A stretch of 64,000 bases of DNA, from NCBI GenBank assembly GCA_949358305.1, contig OX442314.1, positions 6,513,087 to 6,577,086 of the forward strand, given 5' to 3'. Made by a program: the position numbers and the translations under genes. Every line of letters begins with the position of its first letter. Within the stretch, counting starts at the first letter, position 1. The notes under the pieces are model-generated. The model was not told where the DNA came from. It did not search any database and saw only the letters and a program-made list of their open reading frames with translations. Shown in pieces: positions 5,594 to 46,533 of this stretch. This DNA is from Strigamia acuminata. Lineage: Eukaryota; Arthropoda; Chilopoda; Geophilomorpha; Linotaeniidae.

Positions 5594-5648
5594 AGTGTTT
5601 AGCTTTGTTTATCTCGGCCTATGAGCGCATTCTGCGCGGCCATTTATT

Positions 5649-11030: not shown

Positions 11031-12384
11031 TATTGCTTTTTTGAATTGGAATTTGAAATATTATGTGTTTGATCACAATTTGATGTCTTTTGAATTTGTT
11101 CCTAAGAATTTTTGATCTGAATTGTGTTCAATTGATGATTTGTTGAATTTTTGAATTTATTTCTGATCTGAATTGTGTTTGATTAATGATTTATCACTAT
11201 TTTGAATTTGTTTTTGACAACTTTGGTCTGAATTATGAAAAATTACTTTGTTTTGTGACGATTACCTTCTGGAGATAGCAATTGCTAAACTAAAGTGTGA
11301 ACTATCCGTGTGAAAATGTAAAATATGCAAACCTGATGTTTTCTCAAAACATATAACATTTATTCCGGTTTGAACCTTATATAAATACTATGCCTACAAG
11401 TGGCTAAAATGACGATAAGTTAAACTATACAGTTATTTGGCAAAAGCCCTGAAATAATATCACTTGCGGTTTTCAGTCTCGTAATAAGAATATGTGACTT
11501 TCTTATTACAGTGACGTAAAAGATGTCGTCTGAATATGGTTCGGGCTTCCAAATGGTCCGGGGTTGGTTCTAAAATGGTGTGTAATGGTTAGGCTTGGGT
11601 GTGTTATATCCGAGAGGTGCGGTTGACTTTTCTGTATCGTCACACACATCGCGTCGCAGATAATTATTGTAATCAATAATTATTGCGAGATGTAACAATG
11701 TGAGAATAAATATTCATATTAATTCCATGGAATTGATCATGATATTTTATAGTCACAAACTTAACTAAAACTATGAAAATAAGTAAAATATATTAAAATA
11801 GCGCCGAGCTATTTTTGCCCCGAGTGCAATCAACATCTAAGTTAGACTTAAATGTTCCGTCAAACCAATAACGAATTGAATCGAAATATCTCGCAGGAAA
11901 GGTTATCCATCGCCGGGAAATTACTCCACTCGGTCCTGGCTGGCGGGAGAGTAACCGGGAAATTACTCCGCGTCGATCACTCTGATAATGCGTCTGTGAA
12001 ATATAAATACTCCACTCTAGATTCTACATTACCAATGCGTCTGTGAATTTTACTCCACTCTAGATTCTGCACTCTACAACGGAATGTTGGCATGAAGCTG
12101 GAGGGAGTGCGTCTGTGGGTTGTACCCCACTCTAGATACTACACTTAAATGTGTCTGTGAATCTCTCCACTCTAGTTACTACATTTCTACAACGGAATGT
12201 TGGCATGAAGAGGCGGGAAGTGTGTCTGTGAGTCTTCTACCCACTCTAGATACTTACACTAAATACAAAGTATTTCTACAACGGATTGTCGGAACGCAGA
12301 GAAGTATAATATGTGCTCAAGTAATATCAGTATCAAACAAAAACAGAACAAGAGCGAGCTATATCCGTTTTGCAGGGGGATATA

Positions 12385-13536
12385 CAGGGTGGAACAAAAG
12401 TCTGTTCCCCTCAAATATTTCCTGAGCAATTGCATCTAGGCCAACTTTGATGAAGCGATCATATAGGAAGTTGGGTGAGAGCAATCCAATGATGTCATCA
12501 AATTTGACCTTGAAGGCCATTTTCAAGGTTATTCACTTGCTAACTTCTAAACCAATCACGTTAGAGCAAAATTTCCAATTACAAAGTTGTAGAACACCAT
12601 CAAATTAGTACTGTCCAATTTATCTTAGTCATCTTCATTTAAATGATTTCTTTTTAAAAAGGAAACGAATCAGAAAAAAATCAGCAATGTGAAATTTTTT
12701 TTCTTGTGAAAAAATAAATTATTGAGGCATTAAAAAAAGATAGTGATTTTTCTTGTGTACTTGCACAATAATGCACATTTGAATACATTTATTTAACACT
12801 AGAAAGGCCAGAGCGGTCATTTTGACCGCAACAGCTGTTTTAAACAGCTGTAGCAATAAACCCAAAGGGTTTACAATACTTTACATCATAAATCAGCAAA
12901 CGTGGCTTTTTTCTGTAATAAAAATTAAAAAAATTGAATTGACCTAGAAAGGCCGAAGGCGGTCCAAATGACCGCTTGAAACAACGCGCACAAGACATGC
13001 ACGAAACGTGGACAAAACGCGCAAATCGTGCAAAATACATAAACAATACGTGTATCTTGCGTTTTGCCATCAAATTGATCAGTAACACGCGAAATATGCG
13101 AAGAAAATAGCAAAACAAAAATTGATGGTCTTGTACGCATTGTTTCAAGCGGTCATTTTGACCGCTTTCGGCCTTTCTAGTGTTAAGTAATTCAGTATTT
13201 TTGTAGTAGAAATTTAATTTTTGCTTCAATGGCTGACTTTATTTCAGCTGATTTGTTTTCATTTTAAAACGAAAACATTTAACTTAAGATGACTAAGATA
13301 AATTGGATAGTACTAATTTGATGGTGCTCTACAACTTTGTAATTGGAAATTTTGCTCTAACGTGATTGGTTTAGAAGTTAGCAAGTGAATAATCTTGAAA
13401 ATGGCCTTCAAGGTCAAATTTGATGACGTCATTGGATTGCTCTCACCCAACTTCCTGTATGATCGCTTCATCAAAGTTGGCCTAGATGCAATTGCTCAGG
13501 AAATATTTGAGGGGAACAGACTTTTGTTCCACCCTG
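12385..13536. mobile_element. Mariner-like foldback/MITE element, copy 1
   Basis: It begins CAGGGTGGAAC and ends GTTCCACCCTG with imperfect terminal inverted repeats of about 260 bp. It is flanked by TA on both sides (12383-12384, 13537-13538). The other G2 LTR shows the empty site with a single TA at the matching place (about 25926-25935). TA target choice and CAGGGTG ends are typical of Tc1/mariner-derived MITEs. It has no transposase ORF. A 386-bp TTAA element is nested in its centre. It lies in opposite orientation to copy 2 at 52970-53713. Confidence 0.93.
12797..13182. mobile_element. piggyBac-like TTAA MITE nested in the foldback element
   Basis: The ends are CACTAGAAAGGCC and its inverse, directly flanked by TTAA (12793-12796 and 13183-13186). 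The ends resemble the piggyBac terminus CCCTAGAAAG. Aligned to the other foldback copy (52970-53713), the TTAA falls at one point and the sequence resumes cleanly. Each end is followed by a 17-bp palindrome, GCGGTCATTTTGACCGC (12813-12829 and 13149-13165), with a variant at 12959-12975. No transposase is encoded. Confidence 0.88.
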
Positions 13537-13996
13537 TATACTCGGTGAGGAGAATAGCTGTTCAGTGATCCAATGGGATCACTGGGCAGTCAAATCCATC
13601 CAATCCCAGATCATAGGAAGTGGATACTCAGGACATAGTCTTCTACTAGGTCCACTACAGGAACTGGATACGCAGGACACATTTTGGATTAAGTCCCTTT
13701 GACTATAATCCAAAAGGAGTCCAACTCACAGTGGGTGATGGGGGGTGACTTCACCAGGTGTAGAGTTTGCACATAATTCAATAGAATTATGTGACAAATA
13801 AATCAACTAGTATTTAAACATCCAAAAGTATTTAAAAGTGTATAAAGTTGCAGTGGAATAAAATATAAATAGTAATTTATATTTTATTCACTCAAAAATT
13901 GTCGAAATTTGAAATTGCCGCTAAAACGTATCAGCGCCATCTATTGACAAAATAAACGTCCTAACTAACAACGTGCATGACAGTGTAACCGTCACA

Positions 13997-14659: not shown

Positions 14660-16315
14660 CTAGTCCAACTCTTCATCCTCAATAAATCCGTCCATGGATG
14701 TAACAACTTCCGAGACGGCTGCGGGTGGAGAATTAAGTCGAATAGCTACCAATTCCGGTACTACATCTGGCTCAACGTCATGGATCAGTGGATCCAGGAG
14801 CATTCTGTGTTGTTCCTCGGTGAATACTTCCAGGGGATCCGGCCCTCCTAACGGAATAGTGTTAGCGCTGGTTGGCTCAGAAAAAACCAAGTGATGGTCG
14901 GGTAAGCCAGAGTGCCATCCCTCACGAATCAACGGGTGTGCTGCTGCTGAGACCTGTTGCAAAATCTTACACCAAATAAAAGAGCGAGTTTGAAAAGACT
15001 CCGGCCGGGATGGATGAAAAATCCATTGGATCACGGCCAGTGGCACGCTTAAATCTGGAATTCGGTCGTTCGAAATCGACACGCTAATACGCTTAGCTGC
15101 TTCCAACAAAATTGGGAAATAATGTTCCACTTCCGCCTTAGTTTGCTCCGTGAGCGACATGTTTGGTCTTGGCATGTATGGGTGAACCAGTAAAATGACC
15201 GGTTCAGCAGCGTCGCTTACTTCGGGGAGCGGAATAGTCGCTACAATCATGTTGTTAGTCGATGTTCCCTCTGGAGAAGCGGCGGTTTGCAGACCAGAAT
15301 CGGAGGCAACCGGCGGAGAATCAGACGCAACAACTGACATTGGTTCGTTTTCCGCCGAGACGACTGAAGTTCCATCAATCGCAGGGGTGGGGGTTTCCGG
15401 CTCGCGTTGTGGCTCCGTAAATCCTCCTCGTGGAGTCGAGGTGCTGGACATTTGTGCCGGGTCTACATAAATAGCCTGCTCCGGGCCCTGGTGGATGAGG
15501 CCACATTCGCGACACATCGCCCAATTGCGTGCTGTCGGCGTACTTAGCCCCTTGACGATAAATGGAAGAATTTCTTCATTCCACATGCTGGATATGGCAA
15601 CGCGTTTACCACCGTGACAGTTCACACAGACCACGGCGTGAATGCCGGATAACAAGGACGACAACCATCCGCATCCTGCGCACAATGGGCAGAACATCAG
15701 TTTCGACTTCGGCATGATGTTGGTTCCCAAGGCGGCAGCTTCCATGTCGCGAAATACATGTTCTCGCCGTTGCTTCCGATAAATCGGTAAGTTGAGCTCC
15801 GATAATGAGCGAGCTTGCGATGTTGGGCGGGTCAACGCCTCGGATGAAGATGCCAACGTGGACTTGGTGGGTCCTTTGGACTTGCCGGTTTTTCCTCGAC
15901 TAGCGGTATCGCGAGGATTTCGTGGTCGAGCAAATGGTCTGCTGGTAGTCTGGGGCGGAGCTTCCTCATAAGATTCTTCTTCTTGTGAGAAGTCGTCTTG
16001 GCGCCGTCTCCTTGAAGCAGAACGGGAGTATTGTGACGAGTCGTCAGAAAAATCCCAATTCGGAGTCTCGTGGGGCGCATCATAGGTTACGACACGCTGA
16101 CTCGCTTGACGGCCTCTGGAAGGACGTGAGTCGGTCGGGCTAACACCCATGGCGGTCCTAATTCGGGGCGGTACGAGATCCGGGTTATCACGGGCCCAGT
16201 TGGCGACGAGCTCGGGGTCAGAGGAGGGATTAACAAAGCGATAATCCGGTTCTTCAGACTCTTCTGGATCCCAATGCACGTACTGTCGCTTGCTAGCACG
16301 ACCTCGGCGACTCAT
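14660..16315 (-). CDS. G2 ORF3: Cys-module protein of unknown function
   Basis: A 551-aa protein from an ATG at 16315, in the env/third-ORF position of G2. The first 190 residues are Arg/Ser/Pro-rich and probably disordered. Residues 209-286 form a compact zinc-binding-like module: C209-x2-C212-x2-C215-G-W, C230-x2-C233 followed by HGGK, then W254, P-x-x-V-K-G, W-A-x-C268-x2-C271, and Y283-V-D-P. The C-P-x-C-x-G-C-G pattern recalls DnaJ-type CxxCxGxG fingers. The same spacing occurs in G4 ORF3, although little else is conserved. No signal peptide or transmembrane segment is seen, so a class I-type env is unlikely. The C-terminal 270 residues are acidic and Pro-rich. A TTTTTTGAAG just upstream of the ATG could be a 3' splice site for a subgenomic mRNA. 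Confidence 0.8.
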   Translation of the reverse strand: MSRRGRASKRQYVHWDPEESEEPDYRFVNPSSDPELVANWARDNPDLVPPRIRTAMGVSPTDSRPSRGRQASQRVVTYDAPHETPNWDFSDDSSQYSRSASRRRRQDDFSQEEESYEEAPPQTTSRPFARPRNPRDTASRGKTGKSKGPTKSTLASSSEALTRPTSQARSLSELNLPIYRKQRREHVFRDMEAAALGTNIMPKSKLMFCPLCAGCGWLSSLLSGIHAVVCVNCHGGKRVAISSMWNEEILPFIVKGLSTPTARNWAMCRECGLIHQGPEQAIYVDPAQMSSTSTPRGGFTEPQREPETPTPAIDGTSVVSAENEPMSVVASDSPPVASDSGLQTAASPEGTSTNNMIVATIPLPEVSDAAEPVILLVHPYMPRPNMSLTEQTKAEVEHYFPILLEAAKRISVSISNDRIPDLSVPLAVIQWIFHPSRPESFQTRSFIWCKILQQVSAAAHPLIREGWHSGLPDHHLVFSEPTSANTIPLGGPDPLEVFTEEQHRMLLDPLIHDVEPDVVPELVAIRLNSPPAAVSEVVTSMDGFIEDEELD

Positions 16316-17610
16316 TGCATCTTCAAAAAATATAAATTTTATTTGAGAACACGAATCAAACTGTCGGTAATTAATTTAATTTCAAATTAAATTAATTGTC
16401 GACCAACAACTGGATTAATTTCGCAATTAAATTCTTAAGTTCCTTTTGTTAGCGGGTTTCCTTCATTTGTCGAATAATTATTAACATTAATAATTATTCT
16501 TGACTTGGTAGATAATTTCATCTTATCCTTTAAAACAATATCGTTGAAAAACTATTCAAATTAGTGTTTATTAAATAAAATAAACCTAATTTTTACATCT
16601 AAACGACATAATAACTAAACAACCTGTCAAAATATTAAAAAATATTTTTGCAGTATTTTTAGTATCTGACAATATACATGATTTTTAACTGTACGAATAA
16701 CTCTATAATTCGTCCGAGTAAAAATCTATCACCGACATCTGGTGGCGTTCGTTAGTATCATACACGTGACTTGTTAACACATGTATGCTCACCAATTTCA
16801 AAGGAATTTAAGCGATATTTTTTATCTTTTATAAAATAAACACTTACTAACTAGGTGCAGTCCTAACAGGGTATATTTGGCTAGTTTAACGTCTAGCTTC
16901 GCGTATTTGCGAGGGCTGCTCGGTTCCGGCGACGTTGGCCGATAAAGACGTTGTGCGGCACGTGCAAATTCTAAGTCTGCCGTAATGGACGCTTAACCAA
17001 AATAAATGTCGTCAATTAATGTCAAAATATTATTAATTTTGACAAAATATTGCTTAAATATTTACCGGAAAATCACGTAGTGAATTCGCGGGAGGGTTCC
17101 TTGTGATTTTGCCACGAAATGGTTTCGATAATCAGCGTCGTGTCGATAATTTCTGAATTTGAACTGATATTCGTCAAATGAAAAAATCAGTAAAATAAAC
17201 GATAAGTGTTCAAAATCATCTAGATTTTAACTCACTAAAATTCAGCGAAAATCCGTTAAAGCGTCGAAAAGTCGAGAATAATCCTTGATTTCAGTCCAGT
17301 ACAAAACTTGGCGAACAAGTGAGTGATAATCTCAAACCAGGGGTTAAGGGGAGTTTCGAGGAGTAATTTGATTGGTTTGTAATTACTCATCTCGAAGTTT
17401 CTATTAACCCAAAGGGGGAAAACATAGTTTCAAGTAAATGTTTACACGTAGATTAATTTAAATACAATCGGCCGTGTAAAAATAACTCAAACATTTGTTA
17501 AATTTTATCTACATTGGTGAAATGTTTTTTTTAATAAAATTTAACAATCCTTCGTGAATATGATTGGAAATATTTATTTAAAAAATAAAATATTTTCAAT
17601 ATATTGTGTC
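16316..17610 (-). other. G2 spacer between pol and ORF3
   Basis: 1.3 kb with no convincing ORF. It contains one long imperfect hairpin (17343-17413) and ends at the putative acceptor for ORF3. It could hold the signals for separate ORF3 expression. Confidence 0.6.
17343..17413. repeat. Long imperfect hairpin between pol and ORF3
   Basis: The arm GGGTTAA...TCGAGGAGTAATT pairs with AATTACTCATCTCGA...TTAACCC around a loop of about 12 nt. The arms are about 28-30 nt with a few mismatches. Confidence 0.7.
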
Positions 17611-20600
17611 CTAACCCAACTTGACTTGTGTTAAACAATTTATGAGTTGTACAAAATCGGTCACGTATTTTGTGTTCGGCTTGGGTCTACGTTTAGACTG
17701 TCGAACGGGAGATGGAAATCTTTTCCTCTTTTTAGACGGATTTTGAGGAGTTTCGTCCTCTTTAGAAGAAATCTGAGAAGTTTCCTCCTCTTTCTCTTCA
17801 ACTAAATCCCCTGTTTCTATGGACACAGGTTCATTTATTAATTCTGAAGAATTAATAACCTGACCTGCCATCCAATCTGGAGTCGGGTGTGACTCGTTGG
17901 TACCGACTTTCTGATCTAATGTCCATTCCTCAATCGGGTAACTTGGGATATAAGGCATTAAATCCTGTATGTTGATCGCTTTTGCTTTTGAATTGTCGGA
18001 GAGCTTCCGTAGCGTGTAGGAACCTCCGCCGAGAATAGCCGTAATTTCCCAAGGTCCATCACGTTTCTCAGCGAATCCTGCCGAAATCCCTTTATCTTTA
18101 TTTGATAAAATATGTGTGGCTTTCCACACGAGATCCCCTTTGGCAAATTGACAAATATAATATTTGTCTTTATGTAGTCGATCATGCTTTTCGTAATTCG
18201 ATTGAATTTTCCGATGCATTTCGCTGTGTGCACGTCTAATTACGTCTAAAATACTATAGACATAAGCTTCGGGGTTCTCTTTGTCGAATTTGATGGCGTG
18301 TTTAGTAATACGCGGGTCAAATGGCAAAGGAACGATTCTTCCTGTATTAAGAATCATCGGAGAACAATTTGTTGCCTCGGACTTAGCGGTGCGCATCGCA
18401 AAGGCAAAAGAATTTAAATATTTTGGCCAGTGAGAGTGAATGTCTGAGTATAAAGCTAACATCATTTTTAAAGTCCTGTTAGCCCGCTCTGTAATATTAG
18501 CGGCAGCGTGATATGGGCTAATGTGAGCAATATCTACGTGATTTTTTCGACAAAAATCATTAAATATTGTTGACACGAATTGTTTGCCGTTGTCGGAGAT
18601 TATCTTTTTTGGATATCCCCAACGGTGGAAAACTTCGCTCATCTTATTAACAATGCATTCACTTGATGCAGTTGCTAGTGGGAAGACTTCAATCCATTTT
18701 GTACAATTATCAATGATTACTAAAATCCATTTTAATTGTGAACGACCAGCTGGCTTTGGTCCCATCAGGTCAATGCTTATTGTCTCCCATGGGTTGGTCA
18801 TGTTGTGGGGTGTATAGCTTGCCCGATGCTTTTGGTGTTGACTAGGTTTGTATTGTTGGCAATGAGTGCAACTGCGAACGTAGTTTCGAGTGTCTTTGCT
18901 CATTCTAGGCCAGAAATACATCTTCTTTGCTCTATCTAGGGTTTTACTCATGCCAGCGTGTCCTGTAAGTGGGTGGCCATGGCATGCGAATAATGCACGT
19001 CTCACAAGAGAGCGTGGAATTACCGCCTTAAACCCGTTGCCGGAGTCGTTTAACTCCTCCTCATCGGTCGGAGCAAAATAAATTAGCATAACACCTTTAT
19101 TTTCTTCCGGTTCGTCGAGAGTGTAGCCACGAATCGCATTTAACCAATGTTTATCCGTGATACGATTTTTTAATTTTTCGTCTCCTTTTAGGTAAACAAG
19201 GATTTTACTACATGCTGGATCTTTAAGCTGCGCTTCGATAATTTCGTCTCGCGTCGGCGGAACTACTTTTAGGATATCTGTTAGCGCAGTGTGTACATTT
19301 TCGTGATTACAATTGTGGACATCTATATGTCTGCAATTTTCTCTCGTACATCCTTCTTCCTCCCCCTTTTCTCCAGAATCATGAAATCTAACTGGATTAT
19401 ATGATTCTGAGAAAAAATCCAAACTAAGGCCAACATTTGTGAGAAAATGTTTGCGCTCAGTCTCCGTCACTTGTAAAGATGCACACCTGTTTCCATTCCA
19501 AGTTGGATAGAAATGGGTGATCTCCTCTGGTTCGATATAATCATAATCCGGAGTGTCTAGTGCAGACAGTGGAGCGCGTGATAATGCGTCCGCTACTTGG
19601 TTCATTGCACCGCGTCTAAAAATAATTTTAAACGCGCCACATTGTATTTTGACGGCCCAACGACCAAACCTTCCCGATGGTTCCGGCGTACTCATCAACC
19701 AGCTAAGGGCCTTAGCATCGGACTCGAGAGTGAAAGTCGTGTATTCAATATAAGGGCGAAATCTTTCGATTGCCCATACAACGGCCAAACACTCCAATTC
19801 CGGCGTAGAATACCTTACTTCGGCCCCGTGTAACACTCGACTGGCGTACGCGACTGCTTTTGGGACCATAATTAATTTCTGTTTCTTTTCACAGAATAAT
19901 TCTACGTCTTGACAGAGTACTGCACCTAAACCTGAATGAGAAGCATCTGTCAAAATGACAAAAGGCTTATTCATATCTGGCATGTGGAGAAGGGCTTGGT
20001 CCTTGTCACACAAAATATCTTTGATAGTTTCGAATGCAGTTGTTTGTGGATCATCCCACACAAACTTTGCTTGATCATGCATAATATTGGTCAATGGACG
20101 AGCAATATTTGCGATGTTAGGAATGAATTTTCGGAAAAAATTCGCAAGTCCTACAAATCTCTGAATGTCTTTAGAACAAGTTGGTTTGGGAAAATTCCTT
20201 ACAGCCGAGACTTTGTCCGGGTCTGGAAGAAGAGATCCCTCGGAAATTAAATGGCCTAAAAATCGTAATGATGTTCGACCAAATTTTGACTTGTCTTTAT
20301 TGATAGTTAGATTTGCAGCATCTAACTTCTCAAGTGCGTCTTTAATATGTAATAAATGATTTTCCCATGTGTCAGAAAAAATAATTATATCGTCTAAATA
20401 GACCAGAGCATGTTTATATAAAGAGTCACCCAATACGGTAGTCATGAGGTGTTGAAAAGAGCTAGGTGCATTACAAAGACCAAATGGCAGTCTCTTGAAT
20501 TGAAATTTGCCTTTTGGAGTGTAAAAAGCAGTTTTACTCTTGTCCTCCTCCTCCATTTCCATTTGATGATAACCTTTAGTTAAATCAATGGACGTAAAGT

Positions 20601-21891
20601 ACTTGGCCTGATTAGTATGATGAATTAACAGGTCAATACTTGGCATTTGAATTGCATCAACTTCTGTGATCGCATTCAACCAGCGGTAGTCGATACATAA
20701 TCGATACTTCCCGCCGGGTTTAGCCACTATGACGGGGTGACTTATATAAGGGCCAGTGGCAGGTTCGATTAACCCATCGGCCTCTAACTCCTCGACCAAT
20801 TCCGTCATAATGGCCTTCTTGGCCGGGTTGTACATTCTATACGGCTGGTGTTTCCAAGTAGCACCAGGTTTAAACTTGATGCTGTGCTTGGCCACCTTCG
20901 TACAGCCCAATTGATCTCGAAATACGTTTTTTAATTGCAAAAGAACGTTTACGAGTAACCGTTTTTCTTCCGCCGAGCTGTTGCAGCCTTCGACGAGTTT
21001 TTCTGCCCAATCAGGTGAAGTGGGAGTTCCTTCACCTTGGAGACCCAAAGTCCTAATGCTTGCTAAACAACAGTTAAGTTCAGTGGTCTCGTATGGCGCT
21101 GTCCATCCGGGCATGTCATCACAGGTGAACACAGCCCGTCGAGGATTAGGGTTTATCCCCGTTCTACGCATAAAATTGTGACCCAAAATCAACCCACATA
21201 CATTCTTGTGTAGAATTATGAAGGTCATAGGTGTAACTCTCCTTTTATCGGCCCATTTGACACAAAGACAAACTTGACCGATAGGTCGGTGATCTATTCC
21301 GACCGCGCAGACACGCATTCCGCGGGGACATTCTTGTATGAATTCCACCGGAATTTCTGTGTTTGAAAGGAGTTGTACTCCAATAAAACATTGGGTGGCT
21401 CCAGAGTCCATTAGTGCGTTGTAATCTAAACCTCCAATTTGGACATTCATACGCGGATCATCTTTGCCACCATTAATTAATTTGCTATTGCAAAGTTTGC
21501 CAAGAAATATTTTTCGTTCTTTCTTGTTCCATTTTTCAAGTTTAAGAATTTTCCTTAACTTGAAAACTTTGGGTACAAGCGGTTTCTTTGGCGCATTCCA
21601 ACTTCCACTGAAAATACTCAAATTTTCTAGTTGGTCTGTCATGATTTTTAAATTCTCATCGACACCACCAGTGGAACTACTAGCTTTCCGACAGACAGGC
21701 ACTGCTTCGTAAGAAATGACCAACGATGGTGGTTTATTCTTCGAATCATCGACATAAGGTACTGTGAGATGACTAGGCTTATGTCTTATTTTAATTTCTT
21801 TTTTATGAAAAAATAAATCATTTGAAAATTCCGAGAGAGGAAACAACTCGTTAGGCGGGGGTTGGGCAACTTGAACAACCCCCTGAATCAG
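17611..21891 (-). CDS. G2 pol: protease, RT, RNase H, integrase (Ty3/gypsy), intact
   Basis: About 1425 codons entered by -1 frameshifting; the frame has no usable ATG at its start. Counting from 21846: protease Asp147 in D-S-G-A-T; reverse transcriptase with Y-L-D-D at 483-486; RNase H with T-D-A-S (Asp634); integrase H/C zinc region (H958, H963, C993, C996); integrase catalytic Asp1026, Asp1085 and Glu1120 with the correct 34-residue spacing; then a GPY/F-like region (G-P-W-E-I) and a basic tail. This enzyme set copies the RNA and inserts the DNA copy with the 4-bp target duplication seen. No premature stops. It is close to the G4 pol in sequence. Confidence 0.95.
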   Translation of the reverse strand: MIQGVVQVAQPPPNELFPLSEFSNDLFFHKKEIKIRHKPSHLTVPYVDDSKNKPPSLVISYEAVPVCRKASSSTGGVDENLKIMTDQLENLSIFSGSWNAPKKPLVPKVFKLRKILKLEKWNKKERKIFLGKLCNSKLINGGKDDPRMNVQIGGLDYNALMDSGATQCFIGVQLLSNTEIPVEFIQECPRGMRVCAVGIDHRPIGQVCLCVKWADKRRVTPMTFIILHKNVCGLILGHNFMRRTGINPNPRRAVFTCDDMPGWTAPYETTELNCCLASIRTLGLQGEGTPTSPDWAEKLVEGCNSSAEEKRLLVNVLLQLKNVFRDQLGCTKVAKHSIKFKPGATWKHQPYRMYNPAKKAIMTELVEELEADGLIEPATGPYISHPVIVAKPGGKYRLCIDYRWLNAITEVDAIQMPSIDLLIHHTNQAKYFTSIDLTKGYHQMEMEEEDKSKTAFYTPKGKFQFKRLPFGLCNAPSSFQHLMTTVLGDSLYKHALVYLDDIIIFSDTWENHLLHIKDALEKLDAANLTINKDKSKFGRTSLRFLGHLISEGSLLPDPDKVSAVRNFPKPTCSKDIQRFVGLANFFRKFIPNIANIARPLTNIMHDQAKFVWDDPQTTAFETIKDILCDKDQALLHMPDMNKPFVILTDASHSGLGAVLCQDVELFCEKKQKLIMVPKAVAYASRVLHGAEVRYSTPELECLAVVWAIERFRPYIEYTTFTLESDAKALSWLMSTPEPSGRFGRWAVKIQCGAFKIIFRRGAMNQVADALSRAPLSALDTPDYDYIEPEEITHFYPTWNGNRCASLQVTETERKHFLTNVGLSLDFFSESYNPVRFHDSGEKGEEEGCTRENCRHIDVHNCNHENVHTALTDILKVVPPTRDEIIEAQLKDPACSKILVYLKGDEKLKNRITDKHWLNAIRGYTLDEPEENKGVMLIYFAPTDEEELNDSGNGFKAVIPRSLVRRALFACHGHPLTGHAGMSKTLDRAKKMYFWPRMSKDTRNYVRSCTHCQQYKPSQHQKHRASYTPHNMTNPWETISIDLMGPKPAGRSQLKWILVIIDNCTKWIEVFPLATASSECIVNKMSEVFHRWGYPKKIISDNGKQFVSTIFNDFCRKNHVDIAHISPYHAAANITERANRTLKMMLALYSDIHSHWPKYLNSFAFAMRTAKSEATNCSPMILNTGRIVPLPFDPRITKHAIKFDKENPEAYVYSILDVIRRAHSEMHRKIQSNYEKHDRLHKDKYYICQFAKGDLVWKATHILSNKDKGISAGFAEKRDGPWEITAILGGGSYTLRKLSDNSKAKAINIQDLMPYIPSYPIEEWTLDQKVGTNESHPTPDWMAGQVINSSELINEPVSIETGDLVEEKEEETSQISSKEDETPQNPSKKRKRFPSPVRQSKRRPKPNTKYVTDFVQLINCLTQVKLG

Positions 21892-21897
21892 TTTTTT
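21857..21897 (-). promoter_or_regulatory. G2 gag-pol -1 ribosomal frameshift signal
   Basis: On the minus strand A AAA AAC (21897-21891) lies in the gag frame immediately before the gag TGA (21890-21888). Seven bases later GGGGGTTG (21883-21876) pairs perfectly with CAACCCCC (21864-21857) across an 11-nt loop. Slipping back one base enters the open pol frame. Slippery heptamer, spacer length and stem all fit a classic -1 signal. Confidence 0.93.
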
Positions 21898-23936
21898 GTC
21901 TCATCGGGAGTGACTGACTCAGTGGCTGCTGGTAAATGCTTAATTAACAGGTCAACCATGTTTTTCTGGAAGTCAGTAAATTTGGAGTCTAAAGTTTCTG
22001 ACGTAACCCAATTTTGTTTGGGTCGTTTAAACTCGGGGTTGGGAGCAGAGTGGTTAAATCTTTTATTTGTATTTAACGAGTCTGATTTCCCTGCTAATTT
22101 TTTGGCAAGAGCGGGACATTCTCTTTTAAAATGTCCAGGCTCGTGACAGAAAAAGCATTTTCCAGTAGTTTTTTCATACTGGGCGGCAAATAATCGCTCC
22201 ATTGAACCATCGTCAGTTGAGTCGTCATTTTCCGACTCGTCTTCATCTTCAACTTCATCTTGTGTTTGCGTTAAACGTAGTGAGGTTTTGGATGGAAAAA
22301 TCTTAGATTTTTCGTGAAGTTTGGGAGTAGGATGATTCTCTCGATTATCGTACTCCAATTTGGCTGCAAGTTGAGAACTTTCAAACTTAGAGCGATTTGC
22401 TCCTACATATTGTAGAATGTCATCTACTGTAAAGTTACCATACATTCCTTGTGTACATAACGCCGTGAAACTTTCTTGAGTTAGATTGTCGAATAATTGC
22501 GCACGTCCAGTTTTATCACCTGGCGGCACTTCACCTTGTTCTTGCGTATAACGCAGAAGAAAACTATAAAGTGATTCGTCGGCTCGTTGTTTTACATTAA
22601 GAAGTCGCCTTTCTCTTGTAAGTGGAACGAGGTCGAAACAATCGAGAAAAGAGGCTTCGAAAGTTCGCCAACTGTTAAAAGTATGGCGTTGCTTATGGAA
22701 CCAACGTTGTGCATGGCCTAATAGTCGTCCAGGTACAGCAGTGTGTACCATGTCGTCTAAAGGAATGCCTTTCCCGAGTGCGACAGCTTTGACGATTTCA
22801 AGGAATCGCGCAACCTCTGTCTGTTTCCCGTCAAAAATAGGAATCTCGATTCCTTTTCCAAAATTCTGACTGGGATTACTCGGGCTTCGAATCTGACCAA
22901 CCAAACCCTGAATAATTTGTTTTACGTTTTCGTCTGACAAATTAGAAGCAGAGTTCGAATTGGGTGTAGACCGACTTTCTTGGTCTCTGAGTGGCGGATT
23001 TGGTTCTTCTCGAAAATTTTGGCGTCTATCAGGTGGCGGAGGAGAACGAGAATTATTACGTCGGTGGAAATTATTGTTATAATTTCCCCCTCCACCAGCG
23101 TGAGATTCGTCACTACTCGAGTTAGGATCGGAGTCACGAGGGTCACCAGGAGCTCTGGGAAATCGTTGATTTCTCGGCGGAGCTCGTCCACCCTGAGAGC
23201 GGGAATTTCTATAATTCCTAAAATCCCCATCAGATTGGGTGTGAGATTGAAAATTTTGATAATTTTCATTTCTCCCCCTTGGTAGGACCGACAGATTAGT
23301 TCGAGGCTGTGGAACTCGAAAAGAATCATTCAAATTCCCAGTGGGAGCGGGTAAATTATTATTTACTGCCGTCGCACTTGGCAAATTTCGGGAAATTGGC
23401 GCAGAAATATTTCCTTGTCCGGAATTTCCCATTCTTTCGGCCGAATTCGATCGCCAAGAACTAGCTGGTAACTGAATCGAAGGTTGAACGGATAATGAAG
23501 AATTTAACTGCCCATTGTCGTCACGAGCAACATTCATTCGCCATCCAGGTAATTGCTGGTAGCGATATGTGGCCGGTGAACGAGGGCCAGTTCGATCTAC
23601 AGAAACACTTCGTTCGTTGGTTACAACTACATCGGGAGTAATTACACGATTTCTCTCGTGATGATTATTCGCCGTGTATTGTTGAGCTTCACACAGAGAG
23701 GAAAACTGCGTCACTTCCAATTGGTAATGGCGACAGTAAACCTCTAAATCATGCGGGACGGATAGTGGATCCGTTTGAGAACTACCTGGGTTGGAAACGT
23801 CTCTAGGAACATTTTCTTCCCCCTGGCTTTCTAAATCAGACTCCACAATTCCTCTTGGTGTTTCACACATACCACCACGTCGTCGTGCTCCACGATTTCC
23901 TCGTGTTCCACGAACTCTTACAGGTCTACGGGCCAT
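21888..23936 (-). CDS. G2 gag polyprotein
   Basis: 682 aa from the ATG at 23936, the first in-frame ATG. It forms the particle and packages RNA. The N-terminal 60 residues are Arg/Gly-rich. A short motif (Y67-C68...L...F...EA..Y) is shared with the G3 and G4 gags. A Ser/Asn/Arg-rich region follows, then a capsid-like helical domain (about residues 355-530, with W-F-H and a F-x-x-x-F segment), an acidic run (D/E/S), and a CCHC zinc knuckle C-F-F-C-x4-H-x4-C near residue 605. It ends at the slippery site, where a fraction of ribosomes continue into pol. Confidence 0.93.
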   Translation of the reverse strand: MARRPVRVRGTRGNRGARRRGGMCETPRGIVESDLESQGEENVPRDVSNPGSSQTDPLSVPHDLEVYCRHYQLEVTQFSSLCEAQQYTANNHHERNRVITPDVVVTNERSVSVDRTGPRSPATYRYQQLPGWRMNVARDDNGQLNSSLSVQPSIQLPASSWRSNSAERMGNSGQGNISAPISRNLPSATAVNNNLPAPTGNLNDSFRVPQPRTNLSVLPRGRNENYQNFQSHTQSDGDFRNYRNSRSQGGRAPPRNQRFPRAPGDPRDSDPNSSSDESHAGGGGNYNNNFHRRNNSRSPPPPDRRQNFREEPNPPLRDQESRSTPNSNSASNLSDENVKQIIQGLVGQIRSPSNPSQNFGKGIEIPIFDGKQTEVARFLEIVKAVALGKGIPLDDMVHTAVPGRLLGHAQRWFHKQRHTFNSWRTFEASFLDCFDLVPLTRERRLLNVKQRADESLYSFLLRYTQEQGEVPPGDKTGRAQLFDNLTQESFTALCTQGMYGNFTVDDILQYVGANRSKFESSQLAAKLEYDNRENHPTPKLHEKSKIFPSKTSLRLTQTQDEVEDEDESENDDSTDDGSMERLFAAQYEKTTGKCFFCHEPGHFKRECPALAKKLAGKSDSLNTNKRFNHSAPNPEFKRPKQNWVTSETLDSKFTDFQKNMVDLLIKHLPAATESVTPDETKN

Positions 23937-24779
23937 AATACTCAAAGAAATACACGTACAAAAGAAAAAATAAACTTTAACTGACTAGCGTAAATGTAAC
24001 ACGCTTAATATTAAACTAAGAAATAATTTGAAAAAATACAACCTTAGCTGCTAAAACTGAAGTGGCTTCGGGAAAAAACTGTCCTGTTGCGTGGTCAAGA
24101 ATGGTCCAAACGGGCACTGGTCACAAAGGCACAACTGGATGGTCGCACTGTCGAAAAGCAAGTGTGGCTGAATATTGGTTGTCAAACTAGCTTCCGGAAA
24201 ACCTCCTTTGTCAAGACAGTCTGTTGTGATTGGTGATGTTGAAAAATTCCTGATAATTTCTAATCCGAAACTCTCAACAATGTCACATCTGGATGACCTA
24301 CTCCGAGCTCCATCGTGAGTGGCTCTCTTTGGCACATTCTTTACCTTGTCAGGGATTAAAAAATCATAATTCCTAACATTGACAGAACAATAGAAAACTA
24401 GTCAAGTTTTTAACCAGTAACATAAAATATTTTAACTTTTTATTTTTTAGTCAGCAGAATTTCTAGTCAAATTCGTTTTTGATCGAAATTCAAGGTTTCG
24501 TAATTTTTCAGAATATAGCCGAATATTCTGGGAAAATCAAAATAGATTTTTTCGTAAGAGATTCGGAATTATAATGAGTTTTCAAAATAATCCAAAAATT
24601 CGACTCCAAATATTTCCAAAAGATAATGAGAATTTTTTGAAAACAAATGAATATTTCACAGTAAATTTATAGAGAAAAATCGGAAATTTTCTAATTATAA
24701 TATCTACATAAAATAATCAAAAAATTCATTTTTCAATTTTACACTTGATCACAGAGTTCACTTCAATAAAATGCAACCT
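23937..24779 (-). other. G2 5' leader
   Basis: About 840 bases between the primer site and the gag ATG. A 94-codon frame at 24051-24335 has no supporting feature and is best treated as chance. Several short TTC...GAA palindromic stretches occur near 24470-24660. A 5' splice donor for ORF3 mRNA might lie here, but I could not single one out. Confidence 0.5.
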
Positions 24780-24797
24780 ATCTCGGTGGGACCTCCA
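24780..24797 (-). promoter_or_regulatory. G2 primer binding site, tRNA-Gln
   Basis: Two bases after the 5' LTR the minus strand reads TGGAGGTCCCACCGAGAT. This is the complement of the 3' end of an animal tRNA-Gln (ATCTCGGTGGGACCT plus CCA), matching the T-stem, acceptor stem and discriminator as I recall that tRNA. Confidence 0.85.
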
Positions 24798-24799
24798 CG

Positions 24800-26388
24800 T
24801 GTGACGATTACCTTCTGGAGATAGCAATTGCTAAACTAAAGTGTGAACTATCCGTGTGAAAATGTAAAATATGCAAACCTGATGTTTTCTCAAAACATAT
24901 AACATTTATTCCGGTTTGAACCTTATATAAATACTATGCCTACAAGTGGCTAAAATGACGATAAGTTAAACTATACAGTTATTTGGCAAAAGCCCTGAAA
25001 TAATATCACTTGCGGTTTTCAGTCTCGTAATAAGAATATGTGACTTTCTTATTACAGTGACGTAAAAGATGTCGTCTGAATATGGTTCGGGCTTCCAAAT
25101 GGTCCGGGGTTGGTTCTAAAATGGTGTGTAATGGTTAGGCTTGGGTGTGTTATATCCGAGAGGTGCGGTTGACTTTTCTGTATCGTCACACACATCGCGT
25201 CGCAGATAATTATTGTAATCAATAATTATTGCGAGATGTAACAATGTGAGAATAAATATTCATATTAATTCCATGGAATTGATCATGATATTTTATAGTC
25301 ACAAACTTAACTAAAACTATGAAAATAAGTAAAATATATTAAAATAGCGCCGAGCTATTTTTGCCCCGAGTGCAATCAACATCTAAGTTAGACTTAAATG
25401 TTCCGTCAAACCAATAACGAATTGAATCGAAATATCTCGCAGGAAAGGTTATCCATCGCCGGGAAATTACTCCACTCGGTCCTGGCTGGCGGGAGAGTAA
25501 CCGGGAAATTACTCCGCGTCGATCACTCTGATAATGCGTCTGTGAAATATAAATACTCCACTCTAGATTCTACATTACCAATGCGTCTGTGAATTTTACT
25601 CCACTCTAGATTCTGCACTCTACAACGGAATGTTGGCATGAAGCTGGAGGGAGTGCGTCTGTGGGTTGTACCCCACTCTAGATACTACACTTAAATGTGT
25701 CTGTGAATCTCTCCACTCTAGTTACTACATTTCTACAACGGAATGTTGGCATGAAGAGGCGGGAAGTGTGTCTGTGAGTCTTCTACCCACTCTAGATACT
25801 TACACTAAATACAAAGTATTTCTACAACGGATTGTCGGAACGCAGAGAAGTATAATATGTGCTCAAGTAATATCAGTATCAAACAAAAACAGAACAAGAG
25901 CGAGCTATATCCGTTTTGCAGGGGGATATATACTCGGTGAGGAGAATAGCTGTTCAGTGATCCAATGGGATCACTGGGCAGTCAAATCCATCCAATCCCA
26001 GATCATAGGAAGTGGATACTCAGGACATAGTCTTCTACTAGGTCCACTACAGGAACTGGATACGCAGGACACATTTTGGATTAAGTCCCTTTGACTATAA
26101 TCCAAAAGGAGTCCAACTCACAGTGGGTGATGGGGGGTGACTTCACCAGGTGTAGAGTTTGCACATAATTCAATAGAATTATGTGACAAATAAATCAACT
26201 AGTATTTAAACATCCAAAAGTATTTAAAAGTGTATAAAGTTGCAGTGGAATAAAATATAAATAGTAATTTATATTTTATTCACTCAAAAATTGTCGAAAT
26301 TTGAAATTGCCGCTAAAACGTATCAGCGCCATCTATTGACAAAATAAACGTCCTAACTAACAACGTGCATGACAGTGTAACCGTCACA
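24800..26388 (-). repeat. G2 5' LTR (1589 bp)
   Basis: TGTGACG...CGTCACA ends, adjacent to the primer site. It provides the uninterrupted version of the LTR and thus the empty site for the foldback insertion. It contains several tandemly similar blocks around CCACTCTAGA-T-CTGCGTCTGTGAA (about 25535-25830). Confidence 0.93.
25535..25835. repeat. Internal LTR repeats (CTCCACTCTAG / ACAACGGAATGTTGGCATGAAG)
   Basis: Within the G2 LTR the phrases CACTCTAGATTCTACA and GCGTCTGTGA recur about five times, and ACAACGGAATGTTGGCATGA twice. The same is present in the other LTR at about 11990-12290. These are typical of reiterated U3/R regulatory blocks, but their role is unknown. Confidence 0.7.
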
Positions 26389-37490: not shown

Positions 37491-39243
37491 TGTGACGATT
37501 CTACTTTTGGCTGATTTAATAGCCATTTAAGATAGATAATTAATCGGTTTAAACAAGACGTTGCTAGGAGTAGCAACAACCTAACCGAGATAAGCTTACG
37601 GAAGTCTGTGTAAAAATATGAATCAATGACTGAGCAGAAATAACTTACAGTTTTAGTGTGACATAACATATTTATTACTAAATATTAACGATAACATAAT
37701 TGGGTTCTTGACGCGTGTAAACGGGCGGCATCAACTGGTTGAGGATCCGGGCGAAGCCAGAGGGATACGGCTGACTTGCGGCATCGTCACAAATATCGCT
37801 ACGGAGACGTATTTGGTCCGCAGCTCGAGTATCTAATAATGCGAAGAGTCCTTCGCATAAGTAGGAATATTCAGCAGAATATTCCATGTTCCAAATGAAT
37901 AAAAGTAAAGTAATTAGTGGAATACAACAAATGAATTGTTGTATAAATATTAATTGGGCGGGGACCGTCACGACAAATGAGAGAACGTCGCGGGAGTTGT
38001 TGAGACTCCATCCGCCAGCATGCCTTACGACGACAAGATCTCGTGATCAGGCGCCGAGTATTTAATTGTCCGCTTTAATTCGCTATCGGTGGTACCAACC
38101 ACCAGGTAAACATTTCTATGGACTTACCGGGTTTAAAAGATATTGCCAATACAGGATTACCAATGCCCGAGTAATTTGTTTAGCACAGTGTTCTTCAACT
38201 CCTGTTCACGGGTTACTAACCCGGAGGGTACAATGGGGCGGGGACCGTCACGACGGTCGAGAGAACCATCGCGGGAGGATTTGACTCCTCCATCCGCCAG
38301 CATGCCTTACGATGGCGGGATCCACTGATCGAGCACCGGGTAAAATATTAATCGGCCACTGCCGTTGGATTACCATTATCCAGGTAGTTATTTATCGCAA
38401 CATCTTGAAGATATTACTCACGGGCTACCAACCCGGCGTGTTACCTGTATATTAGGCTTTTACCGACTTTTAACGAGCGGAAGGACCAATCGTAGAAAGA
38501 CGGGAACCTGCGTGGGCTGTTTACAACAGCCATCCTGCAGCGGACTGAGGCCAGTTAGCTGAGGGACCTACTTTTCATTTAGCAAGGTCGTACTGTATAC
38601 GACCGTTATATTAAGCCACCGTACGAAGTCCTACTGTCCCGTAGAACAGCTGGCTAACGTTACGGGGCCATTTCATGCGAATGCATGTCTATTACCGGAG
38701 TTAGCCTTCCCGAAATAGCCCTACAACAGCAATAACAAATAGTAATGAATACTAACTGTGGAGAGCTGAGGTGGCCTGATGTGTCGATAGAGAATAATGA
38801 AATCAAACGATAACAATTCAACTACAGACAATATACAAGTTCAGTTATCAAGCCAGGGGGGTTAGTGGGTGAGAAACTGATGCTTATATAGTTCTGTAGA
38901 ACTACTAGATTGGCGACAGCCAATCAGCGTACGAATCGGTGGATTCGTGGGTCACTAGTCCGGACCTAATATATGACTATGCCCAGATGGGCCCAGTTGG
39001 GGTCCGGAAGGGTCCGATTGGTTCCCTTCGACAGGTAAGTAATGTGGATATTGATTCGATAGAATCAACATTGTCAAGTAAATAATACTTAGTTTATATC
39101 GAATAAAATAGTTATATTTTATTCACCGTGTCTAAATAATTATTTATCACACTTTTTAATTTTATCGAGTTTGAATTACGCGCGTTTGGTAAACAGCGCC
39201 ATCTATTGTGAACATTGATAAATACGGATTTGTAATCATCACA
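37491..39243 (-). repeat. G4 3' LTR
   Basis: On its own strand it begins TGTGATGATTACAAATCC and ends AGTAGAATCGTCACA. It contains two diverged tandem units, each starting with a GGGGCGGGGACCGTCACGAC-type block. A 97-codon frame (37678-37971, minus) is shared with the other two copies of this LTR. Confidence 0.93.
37945..38450. repeat. Two tandem units of about 276 bp inside the G4 LTR
   Basis: GGGCGGGGACCGTCACGAC ... GACTCC ... CATCCGCCAGCATGCC occurs at 37947-38030 and again at 38231-38310, each followed by a GGTAAA...TTACC segment. It is repeated in the other G4 LTR and, inverted, in G5. The GGGGCGGGG core resembles an Sp1/GC box. Confidence 0.75.
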
Positions 39244-39995
39244 CATCCCCCGGTGACAAGCATAGAGTTTACCAACTCTTCAATTGTCATTCTTAATGTA
39301 TAAGAAATGTTCACCTAATTCTATCGAATTAATCCACTCGGTAAGTATTTTATTAAACTTAATCCTGTTATTTCTTTCAGAAACTTCATCACCCGATTAG
39401 ACTAATCGGCTTCCCTGTACAACGCAACTCCCGGTTGCTAAGCGACGGAAATGAACTCGTCCGAACATGAACACCTGTTCGAGAAAACTAATTTCGATAG
39501 AAATTTTTATTTTCTCCATCAAATAAACTTATTTCCAGCTTATTAATTATCCAGATGATCAAATAAAATAAATTTATGCAAAATTTTATTTATCGGAAAA
39601 TCTAAACTACGAATTCTTTATTACGAATGTCATAAAAAATTATTGGATTTCAACTTGAAATTCTTCAACACTTTGAACAAAGCAAAACAAATACAATTTC
39701 CACAAATAATTATGAAATTCGCAAATAAATCAAACAAACATATATTAATATGATTAGTTGAAATAAACAACCAAATTGAATTCGGAAAACAAAACAAATT
39801 AAATTGAATCCAATTTTAAATCAAACTATATTCTTATGAATATTTAAATAATTAGTTCAAGATCTTGAAACCAAACAAACACAACACTCATGAGAATATT
39901 TCTTAAATAACTTCGAATAACACAACAAACACTTGGAACATTTTCAGTCATAAAAATCTCCACTCGGAAAAATAACGAATGTTAATTTGTCTCTT
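39244..39995 (-). other. G4 3' UTR with polypurine tract
   Basis: Next to the LTR the minus strand reads GTCACCGGGGGATG (39244-39257), the polypurine primer. The remainder is AT-rich with no ORF. Confidence 0.7.
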
Positions 39996-41513
39996 CTATT
40001 CTTTCTTTTCGACGTCAGTCGAATCTTTCTCCTCCTTTTTCTCGACTTCGGCAGAAGTCAGAAAATCCGATTCTTCAGTCGCCTCTGTCGAGACGGCGGA
40101 AAACACAGCTTCTTCCGGCGCTTCGATTTCATCCGGACTCGGAGGCGGAAACGGCATGTCGTCGAGAAGCTCAGCCACGAAATCAACGACGGAAAGCAGC
40201 TCTTCAGCGTCCTCGAACTGAGCGTCGTCCAAAGTCTCAGACTTAGACGCTGGAGGGGCGCTGGACACGTCGGTTACGACCGCTGGAGGATCCTCCACGG
40301 GTTTAGCCGACGCTTCTACAGCCTGTTGAAGCTTACGAGCTCGCCCTCGTGCCAAGATGTTGGTTCGTTGAACTTTGGCAATTTCTCTCGCTCGGTCGAG
40401 CGTCAGACAGCCTCGTCCACGCGACATCGTTCTCGGTCGAACGATTTCTTCTACGACCTCGCTTCCAACGCTGTCGGCGGCCTGGACAGTTTCAGTAGAA
40501 ACTTCAGAGTCCTCGGACGGCGGCGGTGACTGTCGAAGGAGTTCGACTCTTACGCCGGCGTTGGCTTCAGCACGGGTCCAGGTGAGGAAGCGCGGGTCGA
40601 TGTACACAGCCTCGCCGCGGCTGTTTAGAAACAATCGGCACTTGGGGCAGTGAGCCCAACATCGCTTCTCGTTAGGCTTAATGCCTTTCACCACGTGGGG
40701 CTGAACCTCCTTGCGCCACGGCTCCGAACGCGGTCGCGTTTTCCTTCCTCGACAGTTTGGACATCTCATTAATGAGGAACTTGCGGATGCACCGCAGCAC
40801 CACCCACAGCCGACGCAAAATGGGCAGATCGTCTCTGTTGCCTGGTCCGTCACGATGTTATCGTGAGGTATTCCGGCTGCCATGTCTCGTTCGCACTGCT
40901 CCTTGCGCAGGCGGGCCTTCTCGTCCTTCTTTCTTGCCTTATTGGCGGCTCGGTACTCGCGGTTGCGAGAAACAGGCTCCGAAAAACGCAAAGCGCCCGG
41001 CGGCGGCTCATTCCATCCGTATTCTGATGCAGAAGACTCAGCACCAGCAGGAAGATGCATAACAGACGCTGATTGTCCCGTCACAGTCGGTGCAGCTGCA
41101 TTCGACGTGTTGGCGACGGTGGGCGCCACGCTTGCAGTTGGCGGCCGAAATTCGGGTGAATGCGGGGCCAACGGGACGTTGATAACGTTCGCGGGCGGAT
41201 ACGCCACCTGGGCCAGCGGGGCCAATTGCGCCGACTCATAAACGGTTGGCTGTGCAGATGTGGATGGGGCCTGCATCATCGCATTTAAGTCGAGCGGAAG
41301 TCCGTCCGGATGGACGCTCAGCCAATTTAGCGTTGCGAGTTGCAACGGCGTCAGGGCGTACATTGAGGCGGGCGCCGTCGGTATCGGTTGGGCCCTCATG
41401 TAAGCACGTTCTGCTGAACGGCGCTGCTCGTCACTAGACGAGGTGGACGAGCTGGAGCTTTTGTGACGGTGTCGTCGATGACTCCGTTTTGAACGGTGTT
41501 TTCCACTTCCCAT
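39996..41513 (-). CDS. G4 ORF3: Cys-module protein of unknown function
   Basis: 505 aa from the ATG at 41513, which directly follows TTTATTTGCTTGTGCAG, a good 3' splice site. The N terminus is basic (Arg/His/Ser/Lys), followed by an Ala/Pro-rich stretch. A basic segment (about 180-210) leads into the module C230-x2-C233-x2-C236-G-W, C251-x2-C254, W266-x2-E-[IV]-x-P-x2-V-K-G, W286-A-x-C289-x2-C292, and Y304-I-D-P. All inter-Cys distances equal those of G2 ORF3. The C terminus is acidic. No membrane segment or signal peptide. The frame is intact even though pol in the same element is broken. Confidence 0.8.
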   Translation of the reverse strand: MGSGKHRSKRSHRRHRHKSSSSSTSSSDEQRRSAERAYMRAQPIPTAPASMYALTPLQLATLNWLSVHPDGLPLDLNAMMQAPSTSAQPTVYESAQLAPLAQVAYPPANVINVPLAPHSPEFRPPTASVAPTVANTSNAAAPTVTGQSASVMHLPAGAESSASEYGWNEPPPGALRFSEPVSRNREYRAANKARKKDEKARLRKEQCERDMAAGIPHDNIVTDQATETICPFCVGCGWCCGASASSSLMRCPNCRGRKTRPRSEPWRKEVQPHVVKGIKPNEKRCWAHCPKCRLFLNSRGEAVYIDPRFLTWTRAEANAGVRVELLRQSPPPSEDSEVSTETVQAADSVGSEVVEEIVRPRTMSRGRGCLTLDRAREIAKVQRTNILARGRARKLQQAVEASAKPVEDPPAVVTDVSSAPPASKSETLDDAQFEDAEELLSVVDFVAELLDDMPFPPPSPDEIEAPEEAVFSAVSTEATEESDFLTSAEVEKKEEKDSTDVEKKE

Positions 41514-42563
41514 CTGCACAAGCAAATAAATTATTTTATTAAAATAATTCCACTCTAAATAGTCATTCCTTGAGTCCAAAGAATTTAAAACGTATTGTTC
41601 GCAACGATAATACACAACTCGAGTTATTTATAACCCTTAACACGTGACACTAATGAGTCACATTCCCCTTGTGTTTATGACACGAGAATGGACTCGCCGG
41701 CAAAGATTTTCATCGAAAAATCGCAACTTGTTGATTTTTTAAAAGAAAAATCCTTTTAGTTTCTTTAAACTATTTAATCCAACTTTTCGAATATCAAAGA
41801 TAACTTTCGTATTAATTAATTAACACTTAGTCTAATAAATATCTCAAATCGAAAATTCACCGCTAAATAATTTATGCAAGCCTCGACCGCGACTTGATTT
41901 AAATAATTAGTGCCCACGTACTTAAACTTAATAAATAATTATTAAATTTAACCCAACTATTCGACTGAATAGCTAAACTTCCAGAGTGATTTAATGCCGA
42001 TTCACGCTTATAACAGCACGTGAATTTATAACTTTTATCGGGACACCGATATTTTCAATTGTTGCGAACAATTTTCTAATTCTTTAGTCAAAGAATATTA
42101 ACGAAAACTACTTACAATTAGAAGCTAGTTTTCCTGGTTTGAAGTCGGCTAAATGAATTAGCGTCGAAATTCTCAAGTCGAAAAGCGAAGACGGTTGAAG
42201 GGACGAAGTCACTAGTATCCGTGTGTTTAACGAAGTGTTTGTGTGCAATGAACCCTGGGAATTTTATTCCCTATTAATTGTCGGGTTCGAGGTTTAATCA
42301 CACCTCGTAAGTCTCGTACCTTCGTAATTACGCGAGATTGTCACTTTTCAAAGTAATTCTCTGTATTTTGGTTAAAATACATGTAAATACGACCAAAAAA
42401 TTAAAATATTCTACCGAATATTTAATTCATCGCAACAAATTCATATTTTAATATAAATTTCCATAAATATCGTAATATCTTGTCCCCCGGTGTTGAGATT
42501 ATAAATCACTACACCTGTCAGACATGTAAATAATTACAGTCTTCAAGTTTTGAATAAAACTTA
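41514..42563 (-). other. G4 spacer between pol and ORF3
   Basis: AT-rich, with no ORF. It ends in the pyrimidine-rich TTTATTTGCTTGTGCAG acceptor directly before the ORF3 ATG. Confidence 0.6.
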
Positions 42564-46400: not shown

Positions 46401-46527
46401 CCTCTACTCCGCCACTATGACTAGTGGCTACTTCAAGACAAGTTGTGTCTACATCCATAAATAAAATCTCCGATGTAGCATTAGCTACTTCTGGGGGATG
46501 GAATAAACCTTCGTCCCCCGGATCTAG
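43420..46527 (-). pseudogene. G4 pol: protease, RT, RNase H and start of integrase
   Basis: Entered by a -1 frameshift at 46527. It contains protease D-T-G-A-S, RT Y-L-D-D, RNase H T-D-A-S, the integrase H/C zinc region, and the first two catalytic Asp residues (D-L-M-G-P; S-D-N-G). The frame runs about 15 codons past the deletion junction near 43420 and stops at 43375. Protease to RNase H look intact, so it could still make an RT, but integration by this copy should fail. Closest relative in the window: G2 pol. Confidence 0.92.
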
Positions 46528-46533
46528 TTTTTT
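46493..46533 (-). promoter_or_regulatory. G4 gag-pol -1 ribosomal frameshift signal
   Basis: A AAA AAC (46533-46527) directly precedes the gag TAG (46526-46524). After a 7-nt spacer GGGGGA (46519-46514) pairs with TCCCCC (46498-46493) across a 15-nt loop. The heptamer, stop position and spacer are the same as in G2, although the stem sequence has changed. Confidence 0.9.

Follow-up and report, generated by a model that had tools for sequence, protein, structure and literature searches.

The third gene of two Ty3/gypsy retrotransposons of Strigamia acuminata, G2 and G4, is, as read from its sequence, a real, selected protein family, and the cysteine module that it encodes is a new domain as far as the libraries searched go. 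Accessory third open reading frames of LTR elements are already known as a kind, and this one, hereafter ORF3, is a new variant among them. We propose, with moderate confidence, that ORF3 is a spliced, non-envelope, zinc-ribbon-like accessory protein that would act on the nucleic acid of its own element. The analysis covers a stretch of 64,000 nucleotides, hereafter the window (C1:6513087-6577086 of the 237.5-Mb genome), together with twenty 10-kb stretches around it, which contain another copy of G4 (L029) as well as a third family, L41 (L041), whose pol is 62% identical to that of G2 and whose module scores 119 bits.

Two Ty3/gypsy elements and their surroundings

Both elements lie on the minus strand in the order gag, pol, ORF3, and both ORF3s sit where the first-pass annotation had placed them. 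G2 spans 11254-26388, with gag at 21888..23945 (its CCHC knuckle just under the Pfam cut-off), a pol of protease, reverse transcriptase (RT), RNase H and integrase identified by ORF and Pfam at 17611..21846, and an ORF3 of 551 aa at 14660..16315. Its 5′ LTR (24800..26388) is identical to the other over both aligned pieces (1131 + 460 bp); the 3′ LTR (11254..13996) contains an insertion of ~1.15 kb at 12384-13537, and the flanks carry the 4-bp duplication GTTT. The insert, at about 12381-13540, has inverted terminal repeats of ~317 bp that are 94% identical, and a relative of it lies at 52966-53718. G4 spans 37491-52466, with gag (46524..48821) matching both a CCHC knuckle and Retrotrans_gag in Pfam, a pol whose first open part (43375..46458) is interrupted within the integrase and whose rest is open at 42564-43322, and an ORF3 of 505 aa, counted from its ATG, at 39996..41513. 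The G4 LTRs (3′, 37491..39245; 5′, 49941..52466, with an insertion at ~51047-51807 and the 4-bp duplication TATT at the flanks) are 99.3-99.8% identical to each other. The primer-binding sites, at 24780..24797 in G2 and 49921..49938 in G4, are complementary to tRNA-Gln (CTG) and tRNA-Gln (TTG), respectively, and match the 3′ ends of two such genes of the same genome. The assignment of both elements to Ty3/gypsy thus combines the pol order protease, RT, RNase H, integrase with LTRs, 4-bp target duplications and tRNA primer sites.

Other elements share the window. An LTR element at 27609-37042 has identical LTRs of 1,918 bp and shares with G2 its primer site for tRNA-Gln (CTG); its ORF at 33051-34472 is similar, in part as a repeated unit, to the N-terminal portion of the gags of the G2/G4 group (E 4e-12 to the gag of L034), and, having no pol, the element is likely a non-autonomous relative of that group. 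A second gypsy group, whose pol is ~35% identical to that of G2, has its own third ORF of ~890 aa with no Pfam match (window 5649-8159; L030:3998-6676 and L032:5492-8179, both on the minus strand). Homology of that ORF to the C-terminal region of ORF3 was rejected, since the profile comparison (probability 0.1%) scored 10.8, below the shuffled controls (best 14.8 of 60). The window copy of this second group is interrupted by a copia element whose 559-bp LTRs are 99.8% identical (L039:8585-9143 and window 5196-5754). The ORFs at 5649-8159 were considered as copia genes and rejected as such: the copia LTRs place copia at 5196-5754/L039, and since their matches are to the second group's third ORF, it is copia that was inserted into the gypsy element. 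A short ORF at 53893-54435 (-) aligns with the end of the family of amiloride-sensitive sodium channels (E 2.5e-8).

A module of six invariant cysteines

The cysteines of G2 ORF3 fall at residues 209/212/215/230/233/268/271 (module 209-271, CPLC...CVNC...CREC, 15503..15691) and those of G4 ORF3 at 230/233/236/251/254/289/292 (module 230-292, CPFC...CPNC...CPKC, 40638..40826), from which it follows that every inter-cysteine distance agrees between the two, just as had been claimed. BLASTP aligns the two proteins over 152 columns around the module (E = 1e-19). The pattern C..C.{17}C..C.{34}C..C has 38 matches in 727,272 six-frame residues, several of them at loci that are copies of one place, and all 38 are the ORF3 module; the pattern is not chance.

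Alignment of eight modules (seven families and one fragment) reduces the core to CPxC-x17-CxNC-x34-CxxC. All eight retain the six cysteines at fixed spacing, within a total of 17 invariant columns (CP-x-C, GW, C-x-NC-x-G-x-K, W, V, G, W, C-x2-C, P), at a between-family identity of 27-69%. The flanking signature first described from G2 and G4 therefore generalizes in part: GW after the first cluster and K after the second are invariant in the eight modules, whereas further sequences do not always keep W-x2-E, Y-[VI]-D-P or the first cluster's third cysteine. This seventh cysteine, that of GCG, is missing in three of the seven families, being V in L41 and F57 and T in F37, and is I in the fragment. 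Its absence there leaves unsupported both the DnaJ-finger comparison and the three zinc sites that the first-pass annotation had suggested. The DnaJ zinc finger, made of four CxxCxGxG repeats, was rejected as an identification: the module has three CxxC pairs, none of which regularly retains GxG, and Pfam returns no DnaJ match. Six invariant cysteines, moreover, are not a whole number of Cys4 sites.

Searches of domain, structure and literature collections

Pfam returned no match for G2 ORF3 and only Anti-TRAP at E 0.12 for G4 ORF3; the modules searched alone gave weak matches under the cut-off, mostly to zinc-ribbon-type families, among them that of the G4 module to Anti-TRAP (E 0.0014, 19 bits, under the curated cut-off). 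The best PHROGs match (E 0.022) is to a family of unknown function and the single NCBIfam match has E 0.21. Sequence searches of the PDB gave no match for G2 ORF3 or the A2 query, one at E 0.99 for the A3 query, and two for the L41 module (E 0.45 and 0.84). In all, no relative in Pfam, NCBIfam, PHROGs or the PDB reached a curated cut-off or a convincing E-value: none of the curated libraries searched holds the module. Encoded relatives were also absent from the viral contigs and GTDB genome contigs scanned, which says little as those sets hold few eukaryotic elements. The first-pass annotation knew of no described retrotransposon accessory protein with this module, and the literature passages searched on such genes name none.

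The module resembles zinc-ribbon and Anti-TRAP domains in having two CxxC pairs at ribbon-like spacing (CxxC-x17-CxxC), but its third CxxC and its W, VKG and WA columns lie outside those models, all matches to which are below curated cut-offs. The structure prediction that had been proposed as a check did not succeed, the module model built from two window sequences having a mean pLDDT of 37.5. One could also imagine a host origin, with the module taken over from a zinc-ribbon or zinc-finger gene such as ZNF512, which it would mimic. The L41 module does match ZNF512_C2HC with E 2.7e-5 and 24.2 bits, under the 27-bit cut-off, and is the query that found the ZNF512 NMR chain, at E 0.84, but this holds for one of three modules, those of G2 and G4 having no such match, and the histidine of the ZNF512 match is absent in G4. 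We consider capture very unlikely; it concerns, in any case, the origin of the module and not its function.

Copies and families in the genome

Across the 237.5-Mb genome, searches with the module find at least eight families and more than 400 copies, a lower bound; the families are named by identity to the query (G2, G4, L41, F57, F68, F41, F37 and F48). The first-pass annotation had held that its case would fall if no further gypsy copies carried the module in a maintained frame; hundreds listed in the genome do so, and the description of an element-encoded protein in env position extends from G2 and G4 to further families. Counted by hand among the matches listed, each time the best 150 of 576-643 candidates, there are at least 98 modules of G2, at least 150 of G4 (all 96-100% identical), at least 51 of L41, at least 58 of F57, at least ten of F68, at least four of F37, at least three plus one fragment of F41, and at least 25 of F48, a family known from match rows and not from sequence. 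The matches listed with L41 and F57 further include at least 32 G4-like ones, 27 of these 32 being absent from the G4 listing. Frames are mostly open: 77 of the 79 full-length G2 ORF3 matches listed are free of stops (two contain one), as are 146 of the best 150 modules listed with G4 (four with a stop), 145 of 150 with G2, F68 and F37 (five) and 143 of 150 with L41 and F57 (seven), counts that are flattering since score-ranked listings favour intact copies. At two L41-family places, L052 (C1:31193700-31194800) and C3:35937203-35937511, the module lies inside a 1,370-aa open frame; at L052 the integrase part continues in frame directly into the module, an arrangement such as a deletion would leave.

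One amplified related family looks, from its sequence matches, to have lost ORF3. Eight integrase matches, 77% identical to G2 and by identity in a sister group of F41 (one is C3:6277715-6278608 (-)), have no module among the best 150 matches of the F41 query, yet in six of the eight a pol frame of 1,422 aa runs without a stop, so not all close relatives need ORF3. At one of these loci, 1,002 bases of the ~1.8 kb downstream contain no ORF of note and only weak matches to the module queries, the best at E 0.006 and on the opposite strand.

Purifying selection

The claim that ORF3 is under selection is borne out over the G2 copies and one G4 pair, and the selection is purifying. For G2, 28 loci from the 79 listed matches were reduced to 25 copies by dropping three duplicates; over this sample, drawn mostly from the highest-scoring matches and thus favouring intact copies, pairwise NG86 without a tree gives a pN/pS of 0.114 for the whole protein, 0.089 for the N-terminal part, 0.022 for residues 182-290, which hold the module, and 0.213 for the C-terminal part. 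The two G4 copies compared give 0.113 for ORF3 and 0.069 for the module, next to 0.127 for pol (1,027 codons). Between-family comparisons of ORF3 are saturated at synonymous sites.

Gene position and an acceptor-like site

In all 15 module-integrase pairs (two G2, six F68, three F41 and four F37) the module lies on the same strand ~1.8-2.0 kb downstream of the integrase match, at 1,808-2,035 bases. A splice-acceptor-like site closely precedes the ORF3 ATG: in G2 an AG after a pyrimidine tract, 5 bases upstream (16321..16322), and in G4 a CAG immediately upstream (41514..41515). A pyrimidine tract with AG 0-5 bases before the ATG recurs in four of four families (five of five sequences), with 10 pyrimidines of 12 in G2, L41 and F57 and 9 in both G4 copies, and a score of 9 or more is reached by 212 of the 8,287 ATGs (2.6%) in the window and the twenty surrounding stretches. 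Retroviral env and regulatory genes are translated from spliced subgenomic RNA, and by this likeness ORF3 would be translated from one as well. This much we infer only, since the test was devised after the sequences had been seen and scored the acceptor side.

Location downstream of pol and an acceptor-like site are also what an envelope gene would have, and ORF3 might accordingly be imagined as a divergent or remnant envelope protein, a reading that we regard as hardly tenable. As had been reported for G2 and G4, there is no membrane segment: the maximum 19-residue mean hydropathy in the four ORF3s (1.55, 1.09, 1.14 and 0.95) never exceeds 1.55. The CxxC pairs sit, moreover, in a conserved cytosolic-type context, and strong purifying selection argues that ORF3 is not a remnant. 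We read ORF3 as a non-envelope accessory protein, probably expressed by splicing and probably zinc-binding.

The protein outside the module

The four families read whole (G2, G4, L41 and F57) have ORF3s of 505-559 aa, each with a basic start (4-6 Lys/Arg in residues 1-12), 3-8 Asp/Glu in residues 13-35 and a W-x4-P[DE] motif after this acidic stretch. Similarity in the region of the W motif is detectable between F57 and G2 (E 5e-4) and between F57 and G4 (E 0.006), and the N-termini of F57 and L41 match at E 3.5e-22, other cross-family N-terminal pairs being weaker. The C-terminal regions match between G2 and L41 (E 1.2e-14), F57 and G2 (E 1.8e-11) and F57 and L41 (E 3.6e-36), and cross-family comparison found no region of this type in G4 ORF3. 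The view of G2 and G4 ORF3 as otherwise very different proteins thus holds for the C-terminal region, which G4 does not share, and has to be relaxed for the W-x4-P[DE] motif common to four families and for the G2 C-terminal part with its matches in L41 and F57.

That C-terminal region (14874..15190 (-) in G2) was modelled from single sequence as three helices, with a pLDDT of 71 in the best of five models (the others 65.7, 44.9, 44.9 and 42.3); a Foldseek search of the PDB with it gave 55 matches at E <= 10, none of them at E <= 0.001. Together with a cysteine-rich module and basic regions that could bind RNA, a helical C-terminus would be in keeping with a role in particle structure or assembly, such as that of a second nucleocapsid or a packaging factor. 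Yet gag already has a CCHC knuckle, separate and putatively spliced expression would yield amounts unlike those of Gag, and one sister family seemingly does without ORF3, so that we give this role little credence.

The N-termini of L41 and F57 contain hydrophobic residues followed by SSSSDEE and SSSSEDE, respectively, which we take to resemble a phospho-SUMO-interacting motif. Lentiviral Vif and Vpx bind a host restriction factor and block it, and ORF3 could, by analogy, be a counter-defence adaptor that binds and blocks a host silencing or restriction factor, for instance of the piRNA pathway. An env-like position and presumed splicing suit such an accessory gene, as do the SUMO-interacting-like stretches, and the G2 module is far more constrained than its flanks at a between-family module identity of just 27-69%. 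The SUMO-like motif is, however, absent in G4 and weak in G2, and it is the module that is conserved and not the flanks, whereas the interfaces of an adaptor would be expected to change; on balance we judge this role unlikely. A bolder variant posits an undescribed class of spliced nuclear regulators that combine a new three-CxxC domain with an N-terminus docking on SUMO-rich silencing bodies, and that thereby evade SUMO-dependent, piRNA-guided silencing. Hundreds of intact copies in a single small genome would agree with it; the SUMO-like stretch is present in two of the four families, L41 and F57, and we regard this variant as a doubtful speculation.

Known accessory genes and the proposed role of ORF3

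Four groups of extra genes in LTR elements bear comparison. In the MDG1 group of Drosophila LTR retrotransposons, sORF1 and sORF2 encode ~110 and 70 aa upstream of gag, one HTH-like with its protein in a subnuclear compartment and the other a membrane protein; they resemble ORF3 as Metaviridae accessory genes of low dN/dS, whereas ORF3 follows pol, has 505-559 aa and a Cys module, and lacks a membrane segment (PMC11952523). The bdelloid rotifer LTR elements have non-envelope ORF3 types (GDSL, DEDDy, CC and TM), typically from spliced messages, which are likewise third ORFs after pol and family-specific; they contain enzymatic, coiled-coil or membrane domains (PMC5408684), none of which Pfam matches in G2, G4 or L41, the GDSL and DEDDy enzyme domains having been sought in G2 and G4 ORF3 and the L41 part scanned. 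The errantivirus env-F is also a third ORF downstream of gag and pol but has a fusion peptide, a furin site and a transmembrane domain, unlike ORF3 with its lack of a membrane segment (PMC12992720). Plant LTR retrotransposons have additional ORFs of unknown function between pol and the 3′ LTR, as ORF3 is placed, some of them nuclear; these belong to plant elements, many are antisense, and the word zinc does not occur in the main text (PMC7264820).

Returning to the reading that we favour, ORF3 would be a lineage-specific accessory gene belonging to a single group of long-LTR Ty3/gypsy elements. To judge by the CxxC pairs, the first two would form a zinc-ribbon-like site, and the third may complete a second site or a cluster. 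With its basic start and the acidic cluster after it, the protein may be nuclear or bound to nucleic acid. ORF3 most likely binds the RNA or DNA of its own element, through which it may control how the element is expressed, how its RNA is exported or packaged, or how it escapes silencing. Cell entry would not be its role.

The third gene of an LTR retrotransposon is usually taken for an envelope gene or given no name; the one described here is not an envelope gene and stays in frame in hundreds of copies. Its fixed six-cysteine signature can be searched for by any annotation pipeline, and the sister family apparently without ORF3 offers a built-in comparison. If ORF3 is a regulator or an anti-silencing factor, it would supply a natural set of tools for countering transposon silencing.
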